Origin: a virus | Reading direction: 5' to 3' (one strand) | DNA length: 64,000 nucleotides | Virus record (IMG/VR): IMGVR_UViG_3300008448_000004 | Location: 1 to 64,000 of that record | Part shown: positions 1 to 58,242 of the stretch, piece by piece | Layout of the letters: each line of letters opens with the position of its first letter | How positions within the stretch are numbered: the stretch's first letter is position 1 | Notes under the pieces: model-generated | What the model was told of the DNA's origin: nothing | What the model saw: only the letters and a program-made list of their open reading frames with translations | Database searches by the model: none | Position numbers and translations under genes: made by a program

Positions 1-2645
1 GGTGTTTGAGTTACTGTGTTTGTAGGAGTGTTAGTAGGTGTACTAGTTTGAGTGGGGGTTTGTGTTGAAGTATTAGTTGGAGTTTGTGTTGCAGTCTGTG
101 TTGCAGTTTGAGTTGGTGTAGTTGTACGGGTAGGGGTTTGAGTAGGTGTCTGTGTAGGTGTGTTAGTTGGAGTTTGAGTACTGGTAGGAGTTTGAGTATT
201 AGTTTGAGTAGGGGTGTTTGTAGGAGTCTGTGTTGAAGTTTGAGTATTAGTAGGGGTCTGTGTAGTTGTATTGGTAGGAGTATTAGTAGGGGTTTGAGTA
301 GCTGTCTGAGTAGGGGTTTGAGTACCGGTTGGTGTATTTGTAGGAGTTTGCGTAGCTGTATTTGTAGGAGTACTGGTGGGAGTGATTGTACTGGTAGAAG
401 TCTGTGTAGGAGTCTGTGTTGCAGTTTGAGTTGGAGTTACTGTTGTAGTTGGAGTTTGGGTACTCGTTTGTGTCGGTGTATTTGTAGGAGTAGCTGTACC
501 GGTCGGTGTCTGTGTTGGTGTTTGAGTTCTAGTTTGAGTAGGAGTGATCGTATTAGTAGGGGTATTCGTTGGAGTTTGAGTAGAGGTACTAGTTGGAGTT
601 TGGGTATTTGTAGGAGTCTGCGTAGCTGTCTGGGTAGGAGTCTGTGTTGGAGTGTTTGTAGGAGTCTGTGTTGATGTCTGAGTATTTGTAGGGGTGTTAG
701 TAGGGGTATTAGTTGGAGTGTTTGTAGGAGTTGTAGTAGTAGTTGGTGTGTTGGTTGGTGTATTTGTGGGAGTTTGCGTAGCGGTATTGGTAGGTGTTAT
801 AGTATTGGTAGGAGTATTAGTTGGAGTTTGTGTAGGGGTGTTAGTTGAAGTGTTTGTGGGAGTTTGAGAAGGAGTCCTAGTTTGGGTTGGTGTCTGCGTC
901 GATGTACTTGTAGGAGTTTGCGTAGCGGTATTGGTAGGAGTTATAGTACCGGTAGGAGTATTTGTAGGGGTGTTAGTAGAGGTCTGTGTTGTAGTTTGAG
1001 TAGGAGTTGTAGTGTTGGTAGGAGTATTCGTCGGTGTCTGTGTCGGTGTGTTAGTGGGAGTTATAGTATTTGTAGGAGTGTTCGTTGGTGTCTGTGTTGC
1101 GGTATTAGTAGGTGTGACTGTATTAGTAGGAGTTTGAGTGGGAGTATTAGTTGGAGTTTGTGTAGGGGTAGTGGTACGGGTGGGGGTTTGGGTGCTAGTC
1201 TGTGTTGGAGTGTTCGTAGGAGTTTGTGTAGGAGTTATGGTATTAGTAGGTGTGTTGGTTGGAGTTTGGGTAGAGGTCTGTGTTGGAGTATTTGTAGGGG
1301 TTGTGGTATTAGTAGGGGTGTTAGTAGGAGTCTGAGTACTGGTTTGAGTAGGGGTATTTGTCGGGGTATTAGTTGGAGTCTGGGTAGAGGTCTGTGTTGC
1401 GGTATTAGTTGGAGTTATAGTATTGGTAGGTGTGTTAGTAGGAGTATTGGTTGGAGTGTTTGTTGGAGTATTAGTTGATGTTGCTGTATTTGTAGGTGTC
1501 TGTGTTGCAGTTTGAGTGGGAGTTTGAGTTGGAGTTTGTGTATTAGTGGTAGTATTAGTTGGTGTATTCGTAGGAGTTTGAGTAGATGTTTGAGTAGGTG
1601 TTACGGTATTTGTAGGAGTATTTGTAGGGGTTTGTGTTGCAGTTTGCGATGGTGTAGAGGTTTGAGTAGGAGTTTGAGTTGGAGTTTGGGTATTAGTTTG
1701 TGTTGGTGTTATAGTATTTGTAGGGGTGTTAGTAGGAGTTTGAGTACTAGTTTGAGTAGGAGTTACTGTGCTAGTAGGAGTTTGTGTACTTGTACTTGTA
1801 GGAGTGTTTGTAGGTGTTGCTGTCTGGGTAGGAGTCTGTGTACTTGTATTTGTAGGGGTATTAGTAGGAGTTTGAGTATTAGTAGGTGTCTGAGTGCTGG
1901 TTTGAGTAGGAGTTTGGGTTGGTGTAGTTGTTGGAGTCTCAGTAGCGGTAGGGGTTTGGGTAGAAGTCTGTGTTGGTGTTACAGTACCAGTAGGTGTTTG
2001 GGTAGGAGTTTGTGTTACGGTAGCTGTAGGTGTTTGAGTAGGTGTCTCTGTATTTGTAGGAGTTTGAGTAGGGGTACTAGTATTTGTCCGGGTTGGAGTG
2101 GGGGTTTCTGTGTTTGTAGGGGTGTTTGTAGGTGTTTGGGTGTTAGTAGGGGTTTGTGTAGGTGTCTCTGTATTTGTAGGAGTTTGAGTAGGGGTTTGTG
2201 TAAGTCCTACGGTTGGAGTATTGGTTGAAGTAGGTGTATTTGTTGGAGTAAAAGTAGGAGTTTTGGTAGTTGTAGGTGTCGGAGTAGCAGTGCGAGTTGG
2301 TGTAGGTGTTGCTTGAGCTGTTCTTGTAACAGTTGCAGTCGGTGTTGGTGTAATTAGTGAACCGATAACGAAGGTAAAGCTACAATCTAAGCCAGGAGTA
2401 GGCGTAGGCGTAGGTGTCGGTATAACAATAGGGATCGTAAATATATCAGTACATATGCCAACTCCATCTAATATAATATTTACTGCTGTATTCGGAAGAT
2501 TATTAACAGTGTATCCTGCTACTAGTTCTGTACAAGATACATTAGATGCGAGTAAGTTCGCAGGTGTAACACTATCGTAGTATAGGTCGAAAGGCCCTGT
2601 AGACGACCCGCAACTAGTGATTTGTATTACTGCTGATACTAACAT
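1..2645 (-). CDS. Thr-Pro repeat fibre-like protein, partial (3' end outside window)
   Basis: An ATG after TATAAGGA opens a frame that stays open for 881 codons to the window edge. Residues 1-85 are non-repetitive and resemble the N-terminus of the 1136-residue protein encoded at 3644-7054 (both have IQIT near residue 8 and GPF-x-x-YYD). A short TPTPTPTP linker and a few more ordinary residues follow, then more than 700 residues in which threonine occupies every second position and proline about every fourth (TPTNTPTQ type units). Such low-complexity stalks suit an extended fibre or adhesin shaft. It is the last gene seen of the leftward structural operon, so a distal tail-fibre role is inferred. 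The C-terminal tip is not visible. The plus-strand frames across it are antisense artefacts. Confidence 0.85.
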
Positions 2646-2702
2646 TCCTTATATTGTAAATATAAATAGAATTTTTTAGGTTTTTAACTTAATTTTCACT
2701 GA

Positions 2703-3629
2703 TTAAAATTCATAGGCATTTACAGTTATAGACCCGTCACCTGTAGGATTATATGTGCCATAACTATTAACTGCGGTAGTAGGATCTGTTGCTGTATTGT
2801 TATATATAGTACTTCCGTTATCTACTACAGTTAAGCCGTTATATGCATCGTTAACCCCGTCACTTGTTGTGTAAGTATACACTGATATAGTATCTGCACC
2901 ATACGCGGTGAAATTGCCGCTACCGTTAGAAGTAAGAGTTACTACCGTATTTCCGTTCCTGCTAATTGCCATGTAAGCAGCGGTTGCAGTAGTCGTAAAG
3001 CTATAAGATATTGTAAACGATGTTGTCGGGGTAGGGGTCGGTGTTAGAGTATTAGTTGGTGTATTAGTTGGGGTGAGAGATATTGTTAAGGTAGGTGTTG
3101 GAGTAGGAGTAGGGGTTGCTAGTATGTTATTACAAGCATTTGCACCATTAGTTCCTCCTTGATCGTAAAGTGTTGTAGATAGCGGGTAAAGTCCTTTTAC
3201 GCTGTTTACCGAAGTTACTGGTGTGTTTGAATAGATGTAGTTAACATAGCAAGGGTAGGGAGTCTGCCCGGAAACAACTACACAATCTCCGTAATCTTTA
3301 TACCACCATTGGCTGTATGGTGTAAAGTTAGGATCGCTAGGAAAGTAGCCGTAAGCAACGGGTATATTTGAACCAGATTCGGTGAGTTCACCACTAGTAC
3401 AGTTTCTATACTTTGTAATTGCATAAATATCAGTACAGTCTATCCAGCTATCTATGTAACCGTTTTCTAAAACCGTAGCGCATTTTACTCCATCGGAATA
3501 CTGTCCAGCATTAACCGGTACGTACTGACTTGCTGAATAGGCATAGAGGTAGCAGCCTATGTTAAAGGTTGAACAGTTAGAGTACAGTGTCGATGAGGTA
3601 GCTTCGCAAAATCCAGGTCCAACAGCCAT
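2703..3629 (-). CDS. Tail-fibre-like protein with TPT linker (308 aa)
   Basis: A Cys- and Tyr-rich N-terminal domain (residues about 1-170) is joined by a Thr-Pro linker (about 172-205, TPTPTPTPT) to a C-terminal domain (about 206-308) predicted to be beta-rich, with many Thr, Ser, Val and Tyr residues. It lies between two much longer Thr-Pro repeat proteins and reads like the same architecture with the stalk shortened. No recognised catalytic motif. Role in adsorption is inferred from position and architecture only. Confidence 0.75.
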   Translation of the reverse strand: MAVGPGFCEATSSTLYSNCSTFNIGCYLYAYSASQYVPVNAGQYSDGVKCATVLENGYIDSWIDCTDIYAITKYRNCTSGELTESGSNIPVAYGYFPSDPNFTPYSQWWYKDYGDCVVVSGQTPYPCYVNYIYSNTPVTSVNSVKGLYPLSTTLYDQGGTNGANACNNILATPTPTPTPTLTISLTPTNTPTNTLTPTPTPTTSFTISYSFTTTATAAYMAISRNGNTVVTLTSNGSGNFTAYGADTISVYTYTTSDGVNDAYNGLTVVDNGSTIYNNTATDPTTAVNSYGTYNPTGDGSITVNAYEF

Positions 3630-3643
3630 ATCTTAAAAAATTA

Positions 3644-6600
3644 TTATTCTTCTAATGCTACAAAACATAAGTATGTACAGAAACAAGAACTCAATCCTAC
3701 ATCATAGGTTAATGTTAATGGATAGTAAGTTACAGGGTAACAGTTGTTAACATCCACGCATAAGGTACCTAATCCTGTAGTATTAACAGCTACAGCATTT
3801 CCGGTTCCACACCCTCCATCTGCTGCTGAGATATTCCCGATTGTTCCTTGTCTGATACAAGCTTTTACAGTTTCGAAAGGTCCTATTGCAATACATCCAG
3901 TATTATTCTGCCTTGTAATATATGATGCATAGACTTCAAAACTGTTAGGGTTGTAAATCTCTGTACAATCTCCTAACTCTTCCGGTGTAGGAGTGGGTGT
4001 TCTGGTAGGAGTAAGAGTTGGTGTTTGAGTTGGAGTTTCTGTATTGGTAGGTGTAATAGTGTTAGTAGGAGTTGCTGTATTAGTTGGTGTTTGAGTTGGA
4101 GTTTCTGTATTGGTGGGGGTAAGGGTATTAGTAGGAGTTATTGTACTAGTGGGAGTTACTGTGTTAGTGGGGGTTCGAGTGGGAGTATTAGTAGGAGTTT
4201 GAGTTGGGGTATTTGTAGGGGTATTGGTAGGAGTATTTGTAGGAGTATTTGTAGGGGTGTTAGTAGGGGTATTAGTTGGAGTTTGAGTAGGAGTGTTTGT
4301 AGGAGTGGTGGTTCTAGTAGGGGTTTGAGTATTAGTTTGAGTAGGTGTCTGTGTTGGTGTATTGGTTGGTGTATTTGTGGGAGTTATTGTTCTAGTTGGA
4401 GTTTGAGTGGGTGTTTGTGTTGGCGTATTGGTTGGTGTATTTGTGGGAGTAGCAGTTCTAGTAGGAGTATTAGTAGGTGTCTGTGTCGGTGTATTTGTAA
4501 TGGTCTGTGTTGGTGTCTGTGTTGCAGTAGGTGTTTGTGTTGCTCCAGAAGTCTTAGTGGGAGTTTGAGTAGCCGTATTAGTTGGGGTCTGAGTAGGAGT
4601 ATTTGTAGGAGTAGTGGTTCTGGTGGGAGTTTGGGTAGAAGTGTTTGTTGGGGTATTCGTAGGAGTACTAGTTCTAGTAGGTGTGTTAGTACTAGTTTGA
4701 GTTGGGGTATTTGTAGGAGTTTGAGTAGCTGTATTTGTTGGAGTTTGCGTCGGTGTGGTAGTAGGAGTTGTGGTTTTTGTCGGAGTATTTGTGGGAGTTT
4801 GTGTGCTGGTTTGCGTTGGAGTATTAGTGGGTGTTTGTGTTGGTGTGTTTGTAGGAGTAGCGGTTCTGGTAGAAGTGTTGGTAGGAGTTTGAGTTAAGGT
4901 GTTTGTTGGGGTGTTTGTTGCTGTCGAAGTAGGGGTTTGAGTAGCTCCTGTAGTTCTAGTAGGAGTCTGGGTTGTGGTATTAGTAGGAGTTTGTGTGGGA
5001 GTTTGAGTGTTTGTAGCTGTATTTGTTGGAGTGTTTGTAGGTGTAGTTGTTTTAGTGGGTGTCTGTGTTGAGGTTTGAGTTGGTGTTTGAGTAGGGGATA
5101 ATGTTACAGTATTGGTAGGTGTTTGGGTTGTAGTTTGTGTAGGAGTTAATGTGGGAGTATTAGTAGGGGTTTTAGTACTTGTAGCGGTTTGTGTCGGTGT
5201 CTGCGTTGGTGTCTGTGTAGGTGTTCCGGTGTTGGTTGGAGTTTGAGTAGGGGTATTAGTAGGAGTTTGAGTTGCAGTTTCGGTAGGGGTCTGTGTAGGA
5301 GTTTGAGTTGCAGTTTCAGTAGGTGTTTGTGTTGAAGTTGCAGTATTAGTTGGAGTTTGAGTAGTTGTAGGTGTGTAGGTTGGTGTAATTGTGGGAGTGG
5401 GGGTATTTGTAGGTGTGTACGTAGGTGTTGGGGTGGGGGTAGAGGTTGCTGCTAAAGAACAGTTAACCGATACCGTATACTCTCCCCCGCAAGGAGCATC
5501 TATAATTAAAGTAGCTGTTGTAGGAAATGCGGCTGTCTTACTGAACGATAAAGTGCCGGTTCCTGCTGCGATCACTGGATCTCCTGATAGGCATGTAGCG
5601 TATGCAGCACAGCTTGTATTAAAGCAATCTCCTACATAGCCACTTGTGTAAGTGTTGCCGTCCCATATTAGAGTAAACCTATCCGGTATGAAGTTTGTTA
5701 TATAGTCTATGCCTACAGTACCCGTAACTGCGCCAATATTAATTGTATACTTTGCAGTGTAAGGGGGTGCTGTTCCTTGTAAAGTATCACCGCAGTTTAG
5801 TGTTCCTATAATAGCTAGATCTGTTGGTGTAGGTGTTGATGTTCTTGTAGGTTGTGGAGTTCGTGTAGGAGTCAGTGTAGTCGTAGGTGTTGTAGTGGGT
5901 GTAGAAGTTTCTGTAGATGTTGGCGTTACTGTCCTTGTGGGTTGTGGAGTTCTCGTTTCAGTAGGTGTAACTGTGTTGGTTGGAGTCTGGGTAGGAGTTA
6001 TTGTGTTAGTTGGGGTTTGAGTAGCAGTGGTTGTGTTAGTTGGAGTTTGTGTTGGGGTTTGGGTGTTAGTTAAGGTAGGAGTTGTTGTGTTAGTTGGGGT
6101 TTGAGTAGGGGTTTCGGTACTTGTAGGAGTTTGGGTAGGGGTTTCTGTGTTAGTCGGAGTTACTGTACTGGTAGGAGTATTAGTAGGTGTTTCGGTAGGA
6201 GTTATAGTATTTGTAGGTGTATTAGTAGGTGTCCTTGTAGGTGTTACAGATATTGTAACCGTTGGCGTAGGAGTTTCGGTACTTGTAGGAGTTTGGGTAG
6301 GGGTTTCGGTACTTGTAGGAGTTTGTGTAGGAGTACTTGTAGTAGTGGGAGTGGGGGTATTACTATTAACAGGAGTTCCACTCAATGTAGGTGTAGGGGA
6401 TTCAGTCGGCTGCGGTGTTCTTGTAGATGTTGTTGTAGGAGTAGGAGTAGGTGTGTTTGGGGTTATAGTTACGGTCGGAGTATTAGTAGGTGTTATTGTG
6501 TTAGTTGGAGTCTGTGTAGGCGTCTCCGTAGAGGTGGCGGTGGGGGTGTTTGTAGTTGTAGTAGTAGGTGATGGGGTTTGAAATGGTGTTTGGGTAGGAG

Positions 6601-7054
6601 TTTGGGTAGGAGACGAGGTTGGCTCGGGAGTTCTGGTTGGAGTTTGGGTAGGGGTTTGGGTTGCTGTGATGCTGGGTGTTGGTGAGTTACTAGGAGTGAA
6701 TGTAGGTGTTGGTGAGTTACTAGGAGTGAATGTAGGTGTAGGGGAATTACTCGGTGTAATGCTAGGAGTAATAGTGTTCGTAGGAGTGATAGAAGGTGTT
6801 ATAGTGTTTGTAGGAGTAGGAGTAGGAGTTGGCTGTCCAATGCCTGGAATCGGTTCTATAACTATGTTGTTACAGCCTGGTTGTATATTTTCTAATATAA
6901 TTAGAGTTGCTGTAGAGGGTAGATTGACTATGTAAGGAAAATCTACTAAAAATATATTAGCTGCAACTTGAGTTAGGGAAGAAACAGTATCGTAATATAT
7001 GTTAAAAGGTCCTTGTGCTCCACCTCCTGTTATCTGTATTGAGTAACTTGCCAT
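3644..7054 (-). CDS. Long Thr-Pro repeat fibre protein (1136 aa)
   Basis: Order: N-terminal module (1-75) homologous to the start of the partial protein at the left window edge; Thr-Pro stalk (about 75-410); an Ig-like or beta-sandwich island with four or more cysteines (about 415-540); a second, more regular Thr-Pro stalk (about 545-1020) with T at alternate residues and Arg or Lys recurring every 18-34 residues, always at an even spacing; C-terminal Cys-rich domain (about 1030-1136). The start follows GAAAGGAAA. Mucin-like composition suggests an extended, possibly O-glycosylated fibre. The 12-bp-like repeat DNA makes length variation by slippage or recombination likely. Confidence 0.85.
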
Positions 7055-53921: not shown

Positions 53922-55109
53922 TTACTGTCCTTTTATAGGGAATCTAGTCCATCCATTAATCCAAGTAGGCATAGCAATCTCCGGAATCGTTATGCTAATC
54001 TCTTTATTTCCTTGAGTTAATGCTTTTACTTTTACGTCATCTGAAGTAATAACTGAAGACTTGCTTATAAAGTTTAAACTGGGTATAAAAGATCCTACCG
54101 AGTTATCTTCGAATTTAGACGTACCATCTTTATAAAAGGTAGCAGTCTCATTTGATTCTAAACTGAATCCTCCTTTCATATAGCCGAAGAATGTTGAGTT
54201 GGTAACAGTAAATTGTGTAGCTCTTCTGAATCTTAGAGCTAGGTTATGGTTAGTCAAAGCATCAGCGACGTTAGGGCCAATTAAAACTAACCCTATCAGC
54301 TTTGGATGAGTGAATGGTTGAGCTGTAGAGCCTACACCGTCGTTATCACACTCAACTCCGTTACCGGCATCTCCGTTATCTACAAACTGCGGATCACGTT
54401 TTGCTATACTATTACTAACAGTTCCAGTATAACCGAAATCAAAATCGTAATCATCATCTGCTGTAGCAAATGCATATAAATTTTTAGGCGATACAGTACC
54501 GCCGAAGAATTCAAATGCATCGTCGTTAGCGTAAACTGTTTGCACGTATTCAATTATAGTGCCTGAACCTACGGCGCCTAAAGTAAGTGCGTTAATTTCA
54601 GAGTTAGGTAAAGCAGCAATGCCGGCATATTCGATACGAACATACTTCAGTATACCGCTATTGTCGCTATCATCGGTACCTCCGTAAGGACGTCCCACGC
54701 CTCCTTCAATAGTTGGTTCAGATGAACGATTAGTTTTAGCTTTACCCAAAATAATAATACCGCCCCAGTCACCAGGAGATCTCTCGCCGGCGATTTTACC
54801 TGAAGTGAATATGATTGGCTTTTGAGCAGTTCCTTCAGCTAGTATCTTTGCTCCTCTTTCGATACACAAAGCACCTTTTTCTGCAATATCACTTTTGATT
54901 ACAGTACCTGGTTGGATGATAAGAGTAGCACCTTCTTTAACATAAACGTACCCTTTTAATGTCCATTCCTTATCTGATGTTAAAGTTGTGGTTGTTGTAA
55001 TATTACCTGTTATAATTTTGTCTATAGGTACATTGATTGGTTCATCCACAGGACTCTTTTTACATGCAAATAGACCGATAAGTACTAACAGCGATACTAG
55101 CTTTTTCAT
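53922..55109 (-). CDS. Bacteroidetes-type surface lipoprotein, receptor partner (395 aa)
   Basis: Signal peptide and lipobox (GLFAC, Cys 16) and then a repeated right-handed beta-helix-like body: KGYVYVKEGATLIIQPGTVIK, GALCIERGAKILAEGTAQKPIIFTSG, GDWGGIIILGKA, EYAGIAALPNSEINALTLGAVG. Proteins of this type in Bacteroidetes sit beside TonB-dependent receptors. It overlaps the receptor stop by four bases (ATGA), so they are made together. Ligand unknown. Confidence 0.75.
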   Translation of the reverse strand: MKKLVSLLVLIGLFACKKSPVDEPINVPIDKIITGNITTTTTLTSDKEWTLKGYVYVKEGATLIIQPGTVIKSDIAEKGALCIERGAKILAEGTAQKPIIFTSGKIAGERSPGDWGGIIILGKAKTNRSSEPTIEGGVGRPYGGTDDSDNSGILKYVRIEYAGIAALPNSEINALTLGAVGSGTIIEYVQTVYANDDAFEFFGGTVSPKNLYAFATADDDYDFDFGYTGTVSNSIAKRDPQFVDNGDAGNGVECDNDGVGSTAQPFTHPKLIGLVLIGPNVADALTNHNLALRFRRATQFTVTNSTFFGYMKGGFSLESNETATFYKDGTSKFEDNSVGSFIPSLNFISKSSVITSDDVKVKALTQGNKEISITIPEIAMPTWINGWTRFPIKGQ

Positions 55110-57361
55110 AAATTAAAGTTTAATGATAGTGAAATTGTTTGTTCGTTATTTGTTTTAATTAGATCACCTCTTGATTTTTGATAGTAGATAGACGGTTGGG
55201 CTAGTATATCGCTTATCGCTAACTTAATCTCACCTTTACCTGCTTTACGTAGATAAACTACATCAACCACATCTCTTGAATTTTCAAAGATGTCTGAGTA
55301 GCCTTGAAAGCCTACAGCAGATATTCTATCTCCAGTTCTATTATAGGATACATTAAAAGTATTCTTATTCTTATGTATATTGACTCCGCTATTAACTACA
55401 TAATCAGATTGACCTTGTAACCTTCTCTTAAGTCCGGTACCGGTAACCTGAGAATGTATTAGGGAACTATTCGTATAGATTTCTAACCACTTGGTAACAT
55501 TCTTTCTCACTTCTACTTCTATACCTACTGTTACTGCTTTCTTGGGATTAGAAAATGTTAATAGTAGGTTAGAAGGTACAGAACCATCTGCTACAATCTG
55601 TTCAATAGGGTTAGTGAATTGTTTACCGAATAAACTAACAGATATATTCTCTCCAGCTTTAGGATAGTATTCCCATTTCAAGTCCAAGTTATAGATGTCT
55701 GTCTTTTTAAGATTAGGATTACCGAGCAGCTGAGCATTTCTTACAAAGTCGTAGTAGGCAAAGTTAGCTACCTCTCTAAATTCAGGACGTGCTAAAGTCT
55801 TTGAAGCTGAGAAGCGATACTTCACTTTATCTAAACTATAGGATAGGTTAATAGAAGGTAGTATATCTAGGTATACTCTATTGACGTTAAGTCTCTGTCC
55901 AGAAAAGTCTGCAGTATATAAATCAAATATATTATATTCACTTCTAAGACCTCCGGATACTTTTAATTTTTTAAATTGATTATCATATTGAATGAAGCTG
56001 CTTCCTAAAAAGAAATTAGCGGTATACCTGTCTGTATTATTTGTTATTTCCTCTAATAAGTCTTCTCTCTGGTATCTAAATATTCTTGCTTTAAAAGCTC
56101 TACCTCTTTGTAGGTAGTTTGCACCTACTTTAAAGTTACTCAACTCTTTAGATAAACCTAAGTTGAAACTCTCTTCGTTCATATCAGACCAAAACCTGTA
56201 TGTATCCCTCCACGCTACAGTGTATAGATCTTCTGTACCTAAAGATCTGACTTTAGGAGTTACTCTATAATCAGGCTGATCTCTTACCATAAGATTGAAT
56301 CCTGCTTGAGCATCCCAGGACTTTATTTTTGCTTCTATCTGTGAATTTAAAAATGTCTTGATAATATTATTTGTAGAAGTAGTACTAACTTGCTGTACGT
56401 TGTCGTAGTTTAGTCCTGATCTTGTTAGGTAAGATCTATCTATCTGTCTGTTGAAATTGGTCTTGAATGTATACTTGTTCTCTCCAAGGTAGGTTAGGTT
56501 TAAGAAACTATTTAAAAGAGAGGTGTTGGTGTAGACAGTATCTTTGTACTTGTACGCTAATTCAGAGCTTGATTGGTAATCTAACCTATCAATATAATTT
56601 AAAGTATAGTTGTTTCTAAAAGACGTATTAAACAATATTCCAAGTTTACCTCTTTTATTTCCTACTGTAAAGCTGCTATTAAGGTTAGGAAAGGATGTAA
56701 ACTTCTTTACGGGTGGAGTTTTTATAAGAGACGTGTACTGCTCTTTTTGAACATTGTTAGATACTCTATAAAGGTAAGTACTAGGAAACGTGGAGGGGAA
56801 CACCGCTTGGTGTACTAATTTAAAATCTCTCGCGGTTGAAATCGTCCCCCATCCACTTCCTATTCCTGCTGAAATAAAGTTACTTGTAACCTCTTTTAGG
56901 TTAACTTGAATTATGCCACCTGCAAAATCTCCCGGTAAGTTTGGGCTTGCTGATTTTAATACAATAATATTATCTATAAGTCCTGTAGGTATGATATCAA
57001 AAGAGAAAGCTCTTCTATCAGGCTCGGTAGAAGGTAGTACCGTTCTTCCTATCATTGCAACATTATACCTATCCGATAGACCTCTGACTAGTACATATTT
57101 ATCAGACTGTATCGTTACTCCGCTAACTCTCTTAAGAGCATCACTAACAACTCTGTCAGGTGTTCTTTTTAAAGCTTCAACAGAAACTCCATCCGAGATA
57201 GAAATATTGTTCCTAACTGTTGATATAACAGCTGAAATGTTTTCTTTCTTTGCGGAAGAACGAACTACTATTTTCGAAAGAGTCTGGTTAAATAAAGTGT
57301 CTTGTGAAAAACTAACTTGTGTTATGAAGAGACAAGCAGTAAGAAAAAGCCTAGCAACCAT
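55106..57361 (-). CDS. TonB-dependent outer-membrane receptor (751 aa)
   Basis: Signal peptide (MVARLFLTACLFITQVSFS, 1-19), a short linker and a plug domain (about 45-160: VSDALKRVSGVTIQSDKYVLV, RGLSDRYNVAMIGRTVLPS, LPGDFAGGIIQVNLKEV), then a 22-strand-type barrel to a C-terminal SLSLNFNL strand with final Phe. It lacks the CarboxypepD_reg-like domain usual for Bacteroidetes receptors. It would import a large ligand across the outer membrane. A hairpin covers its start. A full-length, intact receptor in a phage is unusual. Confidence 0.88.
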   Translation of the reverse strand: MVARLFLTACLFITQVSFSQDTLFNQTLSKIVVRSSAKKENISAVISTVRNNISISDGVSVEALKRTPDRVVSDALKRVSGVTIQSDKYVLVRGLSDRYNVAMIGRTVLPSTEPDRRAFSFDIIPTGLIDNIIVLKSASPNLPGDFAGGIIQVNLKEVTSNFISAGIGSGWGTISTARDFKLVHQAVFPSTFPSTYLYRVSNNVQKEQYTSLIKTPPVKKFTSFPNLNSSFTVGNKRGKLGILFNTSFRNNYTLNYIDRLDYQSSSELAYKYKDTVYTNTSLLNSFLNLTYLGENKYTFKTNFNRQIDRSYLTRSGLNYDNVQQVSTTSTNNIIKTFLNSQIEAKIKSWDAQAGFNLMVRDQPDYRVTPKVRSLGTEDLYTVAWRDTYRFWSDMNEESFNLGLSKELSNFKVGANYLQRGRAFKARIFRYQREDLLEEITNNTDRYTANFFLGSSFIQYDNQFKKLKVSGGLRSEYNIFDLYTADFSGQRLNVNRVYLDILPSINLSYSLDKVKYRFSASKTLARPEFREVANFAYYDFVRNAQLLGNPNLKKTDIYNLDLKWEYYPKAGENISVSLFGKQFTNPIEQIVADGSVPSNLLLTFSNPKKAVTVGIEVEVRKNVTKWLEIYTNSSLIHSQVTGTGLKRRLQGQSDYVVNSGVNIHKNKNTFNVSYNRTGDRISAVGFQGYSDIFENSRDVVDVVYLRKAGKGEIKLAISDILAQPSIYYQKSRGDLIKTNNEQTISLSLNFNL

Positions 57362-57804: not shown

Positions 57805-58242
57805 TGGTGGAGATGACGGGAGTCGAACCCGTGTCTCCGAAAGAGACAATAACACCAACGTTTCACATGCTTAGTACTGCTTTCGGGCCCGTATGCTAAA
57901 CTTAGGCTAGCTGGGTCTGTCTACTGCACCGTAAGGGCTGACCGGTTATGGTCGAATCCACCACCTTGTTTTAATTGACTACAAGGAAAACTACGGCTCG
58001 CAATATGCGTCCGGATGCCGTCTCTATAGCGTACGACTCGCTGTTGTGTTCTGTTCCTAGGCTCTCTACCGCCCGATGCGGACTAGGCTGCTACAGCGTA
58101 GTCGGCGCCTACGAAAGACATTAAGTCTTCGAAGGTCATAGTTGACATTTCGTCATTTGTTGTTTAGTATCTTCTAAGGCAGTATACTCAAATGCCTGCA
58201 TGTGGTATTACCTCAACATTCGGATCAATACCAAACATCCCC
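57805..58242 (-). ncRNA. ssrA: tmRNA (transfer-messenger RNA)
   Basis: The 3' end carries a T-arm and acceptor strand CGGGTTCGACTCCCGTCATC ending ...CTCCACCA, which pairs with 5' GGGGATG (GGGGATGTTTGGTATTGATC). After a pseudoknot (S1 AGGCA/TGCCT at 58193-58197 and 58177-58181; S2 AGTAT/ATACT at 58184-58188 and 58166-58170) a reading frame ends ADYAVAA-TAG at 58083. E. coli tmRNA starts its tag 90 nt from the 5' end; here that point lies near 58154, giving a tag of about 22-25 residues ending GADYAVAA, instead of the usual 8-12. It rescues stalled ribosomes and marks the product for proteolysis. Confidence 0.92.

Follow-up and report, generated by a model that had tools for sequence, protein, structure and literature searches.

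The tags of tmRNAs are usually treated as short, near-universal degrons. In the 2025 tmRNA database, which draws on NCBI genomes and RefSeq viruses and holds 97,179 unique sequences, 79 of them from phages, the most frequent tag is 10 aa long (PMC11915505). Long tags as such are already known from the Mollicutes: the mf-ssrA tag of Mesoplasma florum, which is read by Lon in a host without active ClpXP, is longer than the E. coli tag and ends in NYAFA (PMC9382460). Phage-encoded tmRNAs have been listed for mycobacteriophages Bxz1, Wildcat and others and for Bacillus phage G (PMC4131195), and huge-phage genomes have been described with tmRNAs, for which ribosome-rescue roles were hypothesised, and also with SmpB (PMC7162821). 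Our literature searches found no paper on the tag strings described below or on Bacteroidota tags, an unremarked tmRNA-database entry being possible, and nothing on extended phage tags among titles and abstract openings.

The stretch of DNA analysed here (the window, 64,000 nt of a virus record of 180,934 bases) almost certainly encodes a tmRNA with an extended tag. This was the proposal of the first-pass annotation, namely a phage tmRNA whose tag is about twice normal length and begins DEMST, and it is borne out by A at position -4 of the resume codon and by selection across a viral family. The span first suggested for the gene is exact, since Rfam RF00023 matches it end to end on the minus strand (65 bits against a cut-off of 47, E 4.5e-23, model positions 1-374 of 374; Table 1), and this is the sole Rfam match above its cut-off within the window. 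The acceptor ends, T-arm and first pseudoknot (PK1) noticed at first reading are all present, and CCA is encoded. G3-U70 is the alanine identity pair, and it is kept together with all seven acceptor pairs in 51 of the 52 full-length family members among the matches listed, the exception being L221, whose 5' end seems to have been set wrongly. What identifies the window RNA as an RF00023 tmRNA is its score, G3-U70, PK1 with linker and A at -4, and an in-frame tag with a stop and an alanine-rich C-terminus; its acceptor halves lie at both ends of one RNA, as distinct from a permuted (two-piece) tmRNA, and its tag reading frame sets it apart from the tRNA-like-domain-only element of the phage DS6A type. 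ARAGORN, run over the whole window, missed the gene; the window RNA alone folded no better than its shuffles (z -0.93), and no enrichment of promoter-like sites was found. In addition, 12 of the 52 full-length tmRNAs among the matches listed have no encoded CCA (L127, L197, L198, L205, L206, L210, L212, L213 and L218-L221), and these phage RNAs would therefore need a CCA-adding enzyme.

Table 1. Features of the tmRNA locus in the window
Feature	Position	Strand	Details and basis
tmRNA gene, one-piece, not permuted	57805..58242	(-)	438 nt; Rfam RF00023; aligned with 35 viral relatives
5' acceptor strand GGGGAUG	58236..58242	(-)	7/7 pairs with CAUCUCC 57809-57815, including G3-U70
Pseudoknot 1 (PK1), AGGCA/UGCCU and AGUAU/AUACU	58166..58197	(-)	RNA nt 46-77; Rfam alignment, sequence checked
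11-nt linker AAACAACAAAU	58155..58165	(-)	A at -4 of resume codon; sequence
Putative tag reading frame DEMSTMTFEDLMSFVGADYAVAA, resume codon GAC, stop TAG	58083..58154	(-)	23 aa; comparative, and ARAGORN on relatives
Conserved internal module STMTFEDLMSFVGA	58104..58145	(-)	Tag residues 4-17; conservation, gap-blind scan
C-terminal DYAVAA-stop, self-folding RNA	58081..58103	(-)	Hairpin GACUA-C-GCUG-UAG-CAGC-C-UAGUC
T-arm ACGGG-UUCGACU-CCCGU	57816..57832	(-)	Rfam alignment and sequence

The same tag recurs in many other viral fragments. A degenerate pattern for GADYAVAA-stop alone matched at least 119 IMG/VR contigs, and nearly all of the matches listed extend upstream with the same peptide; a second pattern, in which the C-terminus was left free, likewise matched at least 119 contigs. 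Among the 128 distinct contexts in the matches listed, 117 have a T-arm downstream, eight have too little sequence, and none was found in three (L064, L188 and the unrelated L224), and the RF00023 cut-off was exceeded in 27 of 28 carrier contigs. Matching of acceptor and T-arm gave full-length RNAs for 55 of 122 matches, 38 of them distinct, and 52 distinct ones were obtained once Rfam matches had been added; in alignment A1 the window RNA stands with 35 of the remaining 51, among which L125 duplicates the window. Within 117 contexts that reach far enough upstream among the matches listed, the tag has 23 aa in 47, 24 in 60, 25 in seven and 26 in three, and none is as short as the ordinary ssrA tag of about 8-15 aa. 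ARAGORN, a program with no information on this family, called 46 of the 52 full-length members among the matches listed, with one of the long tags of the family in 45, and missed six, the window RNA among them.

The tags of this family are built from a variable start, a conserved internal module and an ssrA-like end. The N-terminal three to five residues differ between members (DEM, DVEL, AEEL, GEEK and others among the matches listed) and are followed by 14 residues with the consensus S-[TS]-[MFW]-T-[FYW]-[ED]-D-x-M-x-F-[VI]-G-A. In 50 sequences among the matches listed, position 3 of this module is occupied by M, F or W, and A, L, V or M is found at position 8. The same pattern is present in 63 distinct tags from both searches among the matches listed, of which the second search fixes several codons by itself. 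The C-termini vary in the way that ssrA tags do (DYAVAA, DYALAA, DLAVAA, DEYAYAA, YAIAA and others among the matches listed), with one variant DEATFA and one DYAVSA as endings other than AA. A control that was blind to the content of the gap (CAATAA[AC][CT]G, 33-62 free bases, then TAY-GCN-NTN-GCN-GCN-stop) matched at least 120 contigs, and the module was present in all 95 distinct in-frame long tags among the matches listed, 87 with GA and eight with GM, and a T-arm lay downstream in 85 of the 95. The same pattern with 2-32 free bases gave 67 contigs in a complete scan; the in-frame tags there, 50 distinct ones with 9-15 aa, are diverse (e.g., GERTYALAA, ANVDYSTEYYAVAA and ANDNSYALAA); 17 of the 50 have a T-arm downstream, and the remaining 33 are perhaps permuted tmRNAs or chance. 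Long viral tags with this 5' box and C-terminus therefore form one family, whereas the short ones are varied.

Judged by its substitution pattern, the tag frame is selected at the protein level. For the 12 codons before GADYAVAA that were not fixed by the first search pattern, 50 distinct sequences among the matches listed had a pN/pS of 0.33 in the tag frame, and the two other frames gave 1.03 and 1.79. After thinning to about nine divergent sequences the tag frame gave 0.28-0.41 and the others 1.02-1.21 and 1.23-1.60; since the pairwise comparisons are not independent, these values are indications rather than formal tests. Conservation along the RNA is also highest in the tag core, with a mean pairwise identity of 0.82 and no gaps, compared with 0.56 in the 5' part, 0.51 between the stop and ACTAAGC (55% gaps) and 0.72 in the 3' tRNA-like end. 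Recurrence in 117 viral contexts among the matches listed, together with this purifying selection on amino acids, argues that the frame is not due to chance, and a chance open frame was rejected because pN/pS is low in the tag frame only.

The family is confined to viruses in the collections that were scanned. The GADYAVAA-type C-terminal pattern had no match in the genome contigs of 84,980 bacterial and archaeal species, and the module pattern had one, L224 in a Tenericutes MAG, which was rejected as a bacterial tmRNA because it is an ordinary coding frame with no downstream T-arm. These scans require an exact pattern match and contigs no shorter than 3 kb; diverged versions could therefore be missed. 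A bacterial origin of the tag was rejected, as no bacterial or archaeal tmRNA in these contigs has it, and presence in more than 100 other viral fragments and in no tmRNA of about 85,000 species makes it look like a purpose-made viral variant. Among 50,697 phage records, tblastn gave no match to the tag, and blastn of the tmRNA gave only matches of 31-40 nt at the T-arm end in three records.

The carriers are probably Bacteroidota phages, as indicated by terminase, outer-membrane protein and signal peptides. The terminase of the window phage is 54% identical to that of Flavobacterium phage immuto and 49% to that of Microcystis phage Mel-JY01, and the phage carries a TonB-receptor-like outer-membrane protein with a PF14905 domain; on these two grounds the suggestion of a Bacteroidetes phage made at first reading gains inferential support. 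Signal peptides that end in SFSQ or SFGQ, a Bacteroidota signature, point the same way. Three carriers (G006, G009 and G021) have a different terminase with like phrog_2 matches in all three, that of G006 being nearest to the uncultured LR756500 (51%), phage PAU (36%), Tenacibaculum phage PTm1 (35%) and Flavobacterium phage MaF61 (31%), and the two carrier terminases are 25% identical, which indicates two phage lineages.

This tag is missing from named relatives. RF00023 had no match in immuto, PAU, PTm1, MaF61 or RM378 and gave a fragment of only 17 bits in Mel-JY01, and the tags read from the related huge phage LR756500 (GNNAEMRMAA) and from Lak-C1 (DDEIDFRMAA) have 10 aa each; the long tag, with its module, is therefore dispensable in the wider group. 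A different 24-aa tag, DNVNSFEQSILNELFAPVEMAVAA, was read from LR756504.1 (L373:1501-1857) and from the IMG/VR contig L385 (about 800-1154; 288,572 bases), and the tmRNA of LR756508.1 (L132:1501-1947; record 92434-92880), which has no encoded CCA, has an apparent 36-residue tag, GVNNADYESAGFTAEDFAQMDGESLYHGSERKPAAV. From the sequences compared, long tags thus seem to have had more than one origin among big phages. LR756508.1 contains, besides its full tmRNA, a tag-less RNA of 112 nt at 414804-414915 (L134:1501-1612; RF00023 58 bits, tRNA-like domain only), which resembles the mycobacteriophage DS6A element; elements of this kind reportedly inhibit tmRNA (PMC4131195, PMC11915505).

ClpP (PF00574) is encoded in six of 28 carrier contigs and is absent from the other 22, that of the window included; in all six, one copy shares the strand of the tmRNA and precedes it by about 3.6-3.9 kb. 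Since G007 and G020 look near-identical and G011 is close to them, these events are not all independent. Among the matches listed, 62 distinct contexts extend at least 4.9 kb upstream, and ClpP was present there in eight of them. The G007 protein has 180 aa, no recognisable head genes stand beside it in the stretch read, and its Ser and His motifs are, as we take them, the usual ones. In several carriers, phage ClpP (L225:5362-5904), some five small genes and the tmRNA follow one another as a block. In the window, two genes lie immediately downstream of the tmRNA (together 53922-57361, minus strand). One encodes a TonB-dependent-receptor-like outer-membrane protein of 751 aa (Plug and OMP_b-brl_3), for which a sequence search gave no solved structure and whose relatives were found in two other viral contigs at 62% and in five phage records at 26-29%. 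The other, for a likely lipoprotein of 395 aa with a signal ending in LIGLFAC, overlaps the receptor-like gene by 4 bases; an outer-membrane transporter pair borne by a phage would be unusual. As well, the window encodes a Thr-Pro-Asn/Gln repeat protein of 1136 aa (3644-7054, minus strand), near which stretches of positions 1-7054 contain dense tandem repeats and show a GC skew of about 0.5.

We propose that the phage tmRNA serves ordinary trans-translation with the SmpB, alanyl-tRNA synthetase and ribosome of the host and would add the 23-residue tag, where charging, SmpB use, tagging and ClpXP recognition are carried over from established tmRNA biology. SmpB was found in none of 31 records (28 viral contigs, many of which may be incomplete, and three phage records), so it would have to be supplied by the host. 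The C-terminal [YL]A[VLI]AA would presumably be read by host ClpX(P) as for any ssrA tag, and the module could be a second handle, which starts like a capped helix (T-x-x-D) and has its hydrophobic residues along a single face. T-[FYW]-[ED]-D resembles what we take to be a helix capping box, and the hydrophobic moment of TFEDLMSFVG in the window had a shuffle p of 0.045, with a median of 0.12 and 30 values below 0.1 over 63 tags among the matches listed, which weakly suggests an amphipathic helix. The module would most likely dock a host protease, unfoldase or adaptor, or ClpXP with phage ClpP in some phages, a role that is speculative; through such docking, proteins rescued during infection might be removed faster or by a phage-controlled route. 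The basic benefit would be ribosomes freed for viral translation, with the module setting the fate of the released protein. This mechanism as a whole, docking module included, we hold to be slightly favoured on balance.

Two other accounts accept the long tag and differ on the module. In the first, which is unlikely and is still the best of the alternatives, the module would have no protein partner: it would either act as a spacer alone or be left over from RNA structure, a former helix 5 that is now read through. The tag RNA does form hairpins: in the 3' one, over DYAVAA-stop, all nine positions are paired in 66 of 66 tag regions among the matches listed, and a double exchange of GCU...GCA for GCA...GCU (44 and 22 sequences among the matches listed) is compensatory, so that peptide and RNA structure are both kept there. 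Folding energy of the tag region was also below that of synonymous resampling in 52 of 66 among the matches listed, at a mean z of -0.53. The hairpin farther upstream, however, is weaker, with only five consensus pairs kept, one of which is broken in four of 66 sequences among the matches listed, and the module residues S1, T4 and F11 are kept in 50 of 50, M9 in 49 and D7 in 48 of the distinct sequences among the matches listed, at codons left free by the search, though third codon positions vary.

In the second account, rather less probable again, the module redirects instead of destroying: it would bind a host or phage protein, sequester tagged products or the protease, and shift host quality control the way of the phage. 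A strongly conserved motif ahead of a degron-like end and a phage ClpP near the tmRNA in some genomes would fit this, but degradation is what the mostly ssrA-like C-termini predict, no partner was found, and no module-like motif occurred elsewhere in the DNA fetched, save two tag copies cut off at the locus end. Docking that leads to removal remains the reading we prefer, and a bolder form of it is conceivable though doubtful. Bacteroidota viruses may have evolved a bipartite tag, an ssrA-like end plus a 14-residue docking module, by which rescued proteins would be sent to a destination chosen by the phage, either an adaptor of the host or a protease remade with phage ClpP. Trans-translation would then be re-targeted, not merely supplied, and the unrelated long viral tags of LR756504 and LR756508 would be separate inventions of this kind. 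That a family found only in viruses keeps the module across terminase lineages no more than 25% identical suggests that the tag peptide itself can be under viral selection, and the module gives a handle on the old question of why phages carry tmRNA; moreover, the tag is a candidate new degron for Bacteroidota genetics.

The remaining alternatives concern where the tag begins. The frame had been expected to be open for about 23 codons back to about nt 88, some 11 nt after the pseudoknot; it holds 23 residues and a stop, and its GAC, at RNA nt 89 with A at -4, stands directly after the 11-nt linker. The distance from PK1 to the resume codon in E. coli tmRNA is also 11 nt (PMC2481249). When a position-weight matrix was applied to five in-frame candidates, the best-scoring resume codon began with G and had A at -4 in all 117 distinct contexts among the matches listed, a result that is mildly favoured by the method and that excludes L224 and contexts with fewer than 90 nt upstream; by a simpler motif rule, 10 of 128 contexts are without the box. 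Resumption at the internal GGC (or GCC) would give GADYAVAA or ADYAVAA, a tag of 7-8 residues, and make the upstream frame an accident of RNA conservation. This is very improbable, even though GADYAVAA by itself resembles a normal tag, ADYAVAA (7 aa) was chosen by ARAGORN in one of its 46 calls (L220), and a hairpin is possible in part of the upstream frame of the window RNA. The base at -4 of GGC is C in 109 and T in eight of 117 contexts among the matches listed, and since such a change at -4 abolished E. coli tmRNA activity in a KanR assay (PMC2481249), a start at GGC or GCC is disfavoured, and so is the normal tag of 7-9 residues that the first-pass annotation had set against its own reading. 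The internal resume codon was rejected on this contrast with the A before the upstream codon, and it gives no reason for amino-acid level selection in the upstream frame. Least probable of all is the separate short peptide, MSTMTFEDLMSFVGADYAVAA, that in-frame ATGs (codons 3, 6 and 12 of the window tag) had suggested at first reading, which was rejected because M3 and M6 are poorly kept across 63 tags among the matches listed (M occurs at residue 3 solely in those 15 that start with DEM; residue 6 is M in 36 and F or W in 27), only M12, within the module, being nearly fixed, and the frame runs in phase up to the resume codon in all members.

Compared with described systems, the family shares with the listed phage tmRNAs that it is phage-encoded, and differs in a tag that was unmatched by tblastn in the phage records. 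Like the tmRNAs of huge phages it is found in large genomes, but SmpB is absent here (0 of 31 records), and the tags of LR756504 (24 aa) and LR756500 (10 aa) are different ones. The Mollicute mf-ssrA tag has about 27 aa, and like it the phage tags are longer than the E. coli tag; in C-terminus they differ, since they mostly end in YA[VL]AA or LAVAA among the matches listed, the window tag ends in DYAVAA, and none of 63 tags among the matches listed has the NYAFA of the Lon-type tag. With the bacterial one-piece tmRNA, as in E. coli ssrA, the family has in common the tRNA-like domain with G3-U70, the T-arm, PK1, the 11-nt linker, A at -4 and an alanine-rich C-terminus, and it is set apart by a predicted tag of 23-26 aa among the matches listed, by the internal module and by a tag whose 3' end pairs with itself.
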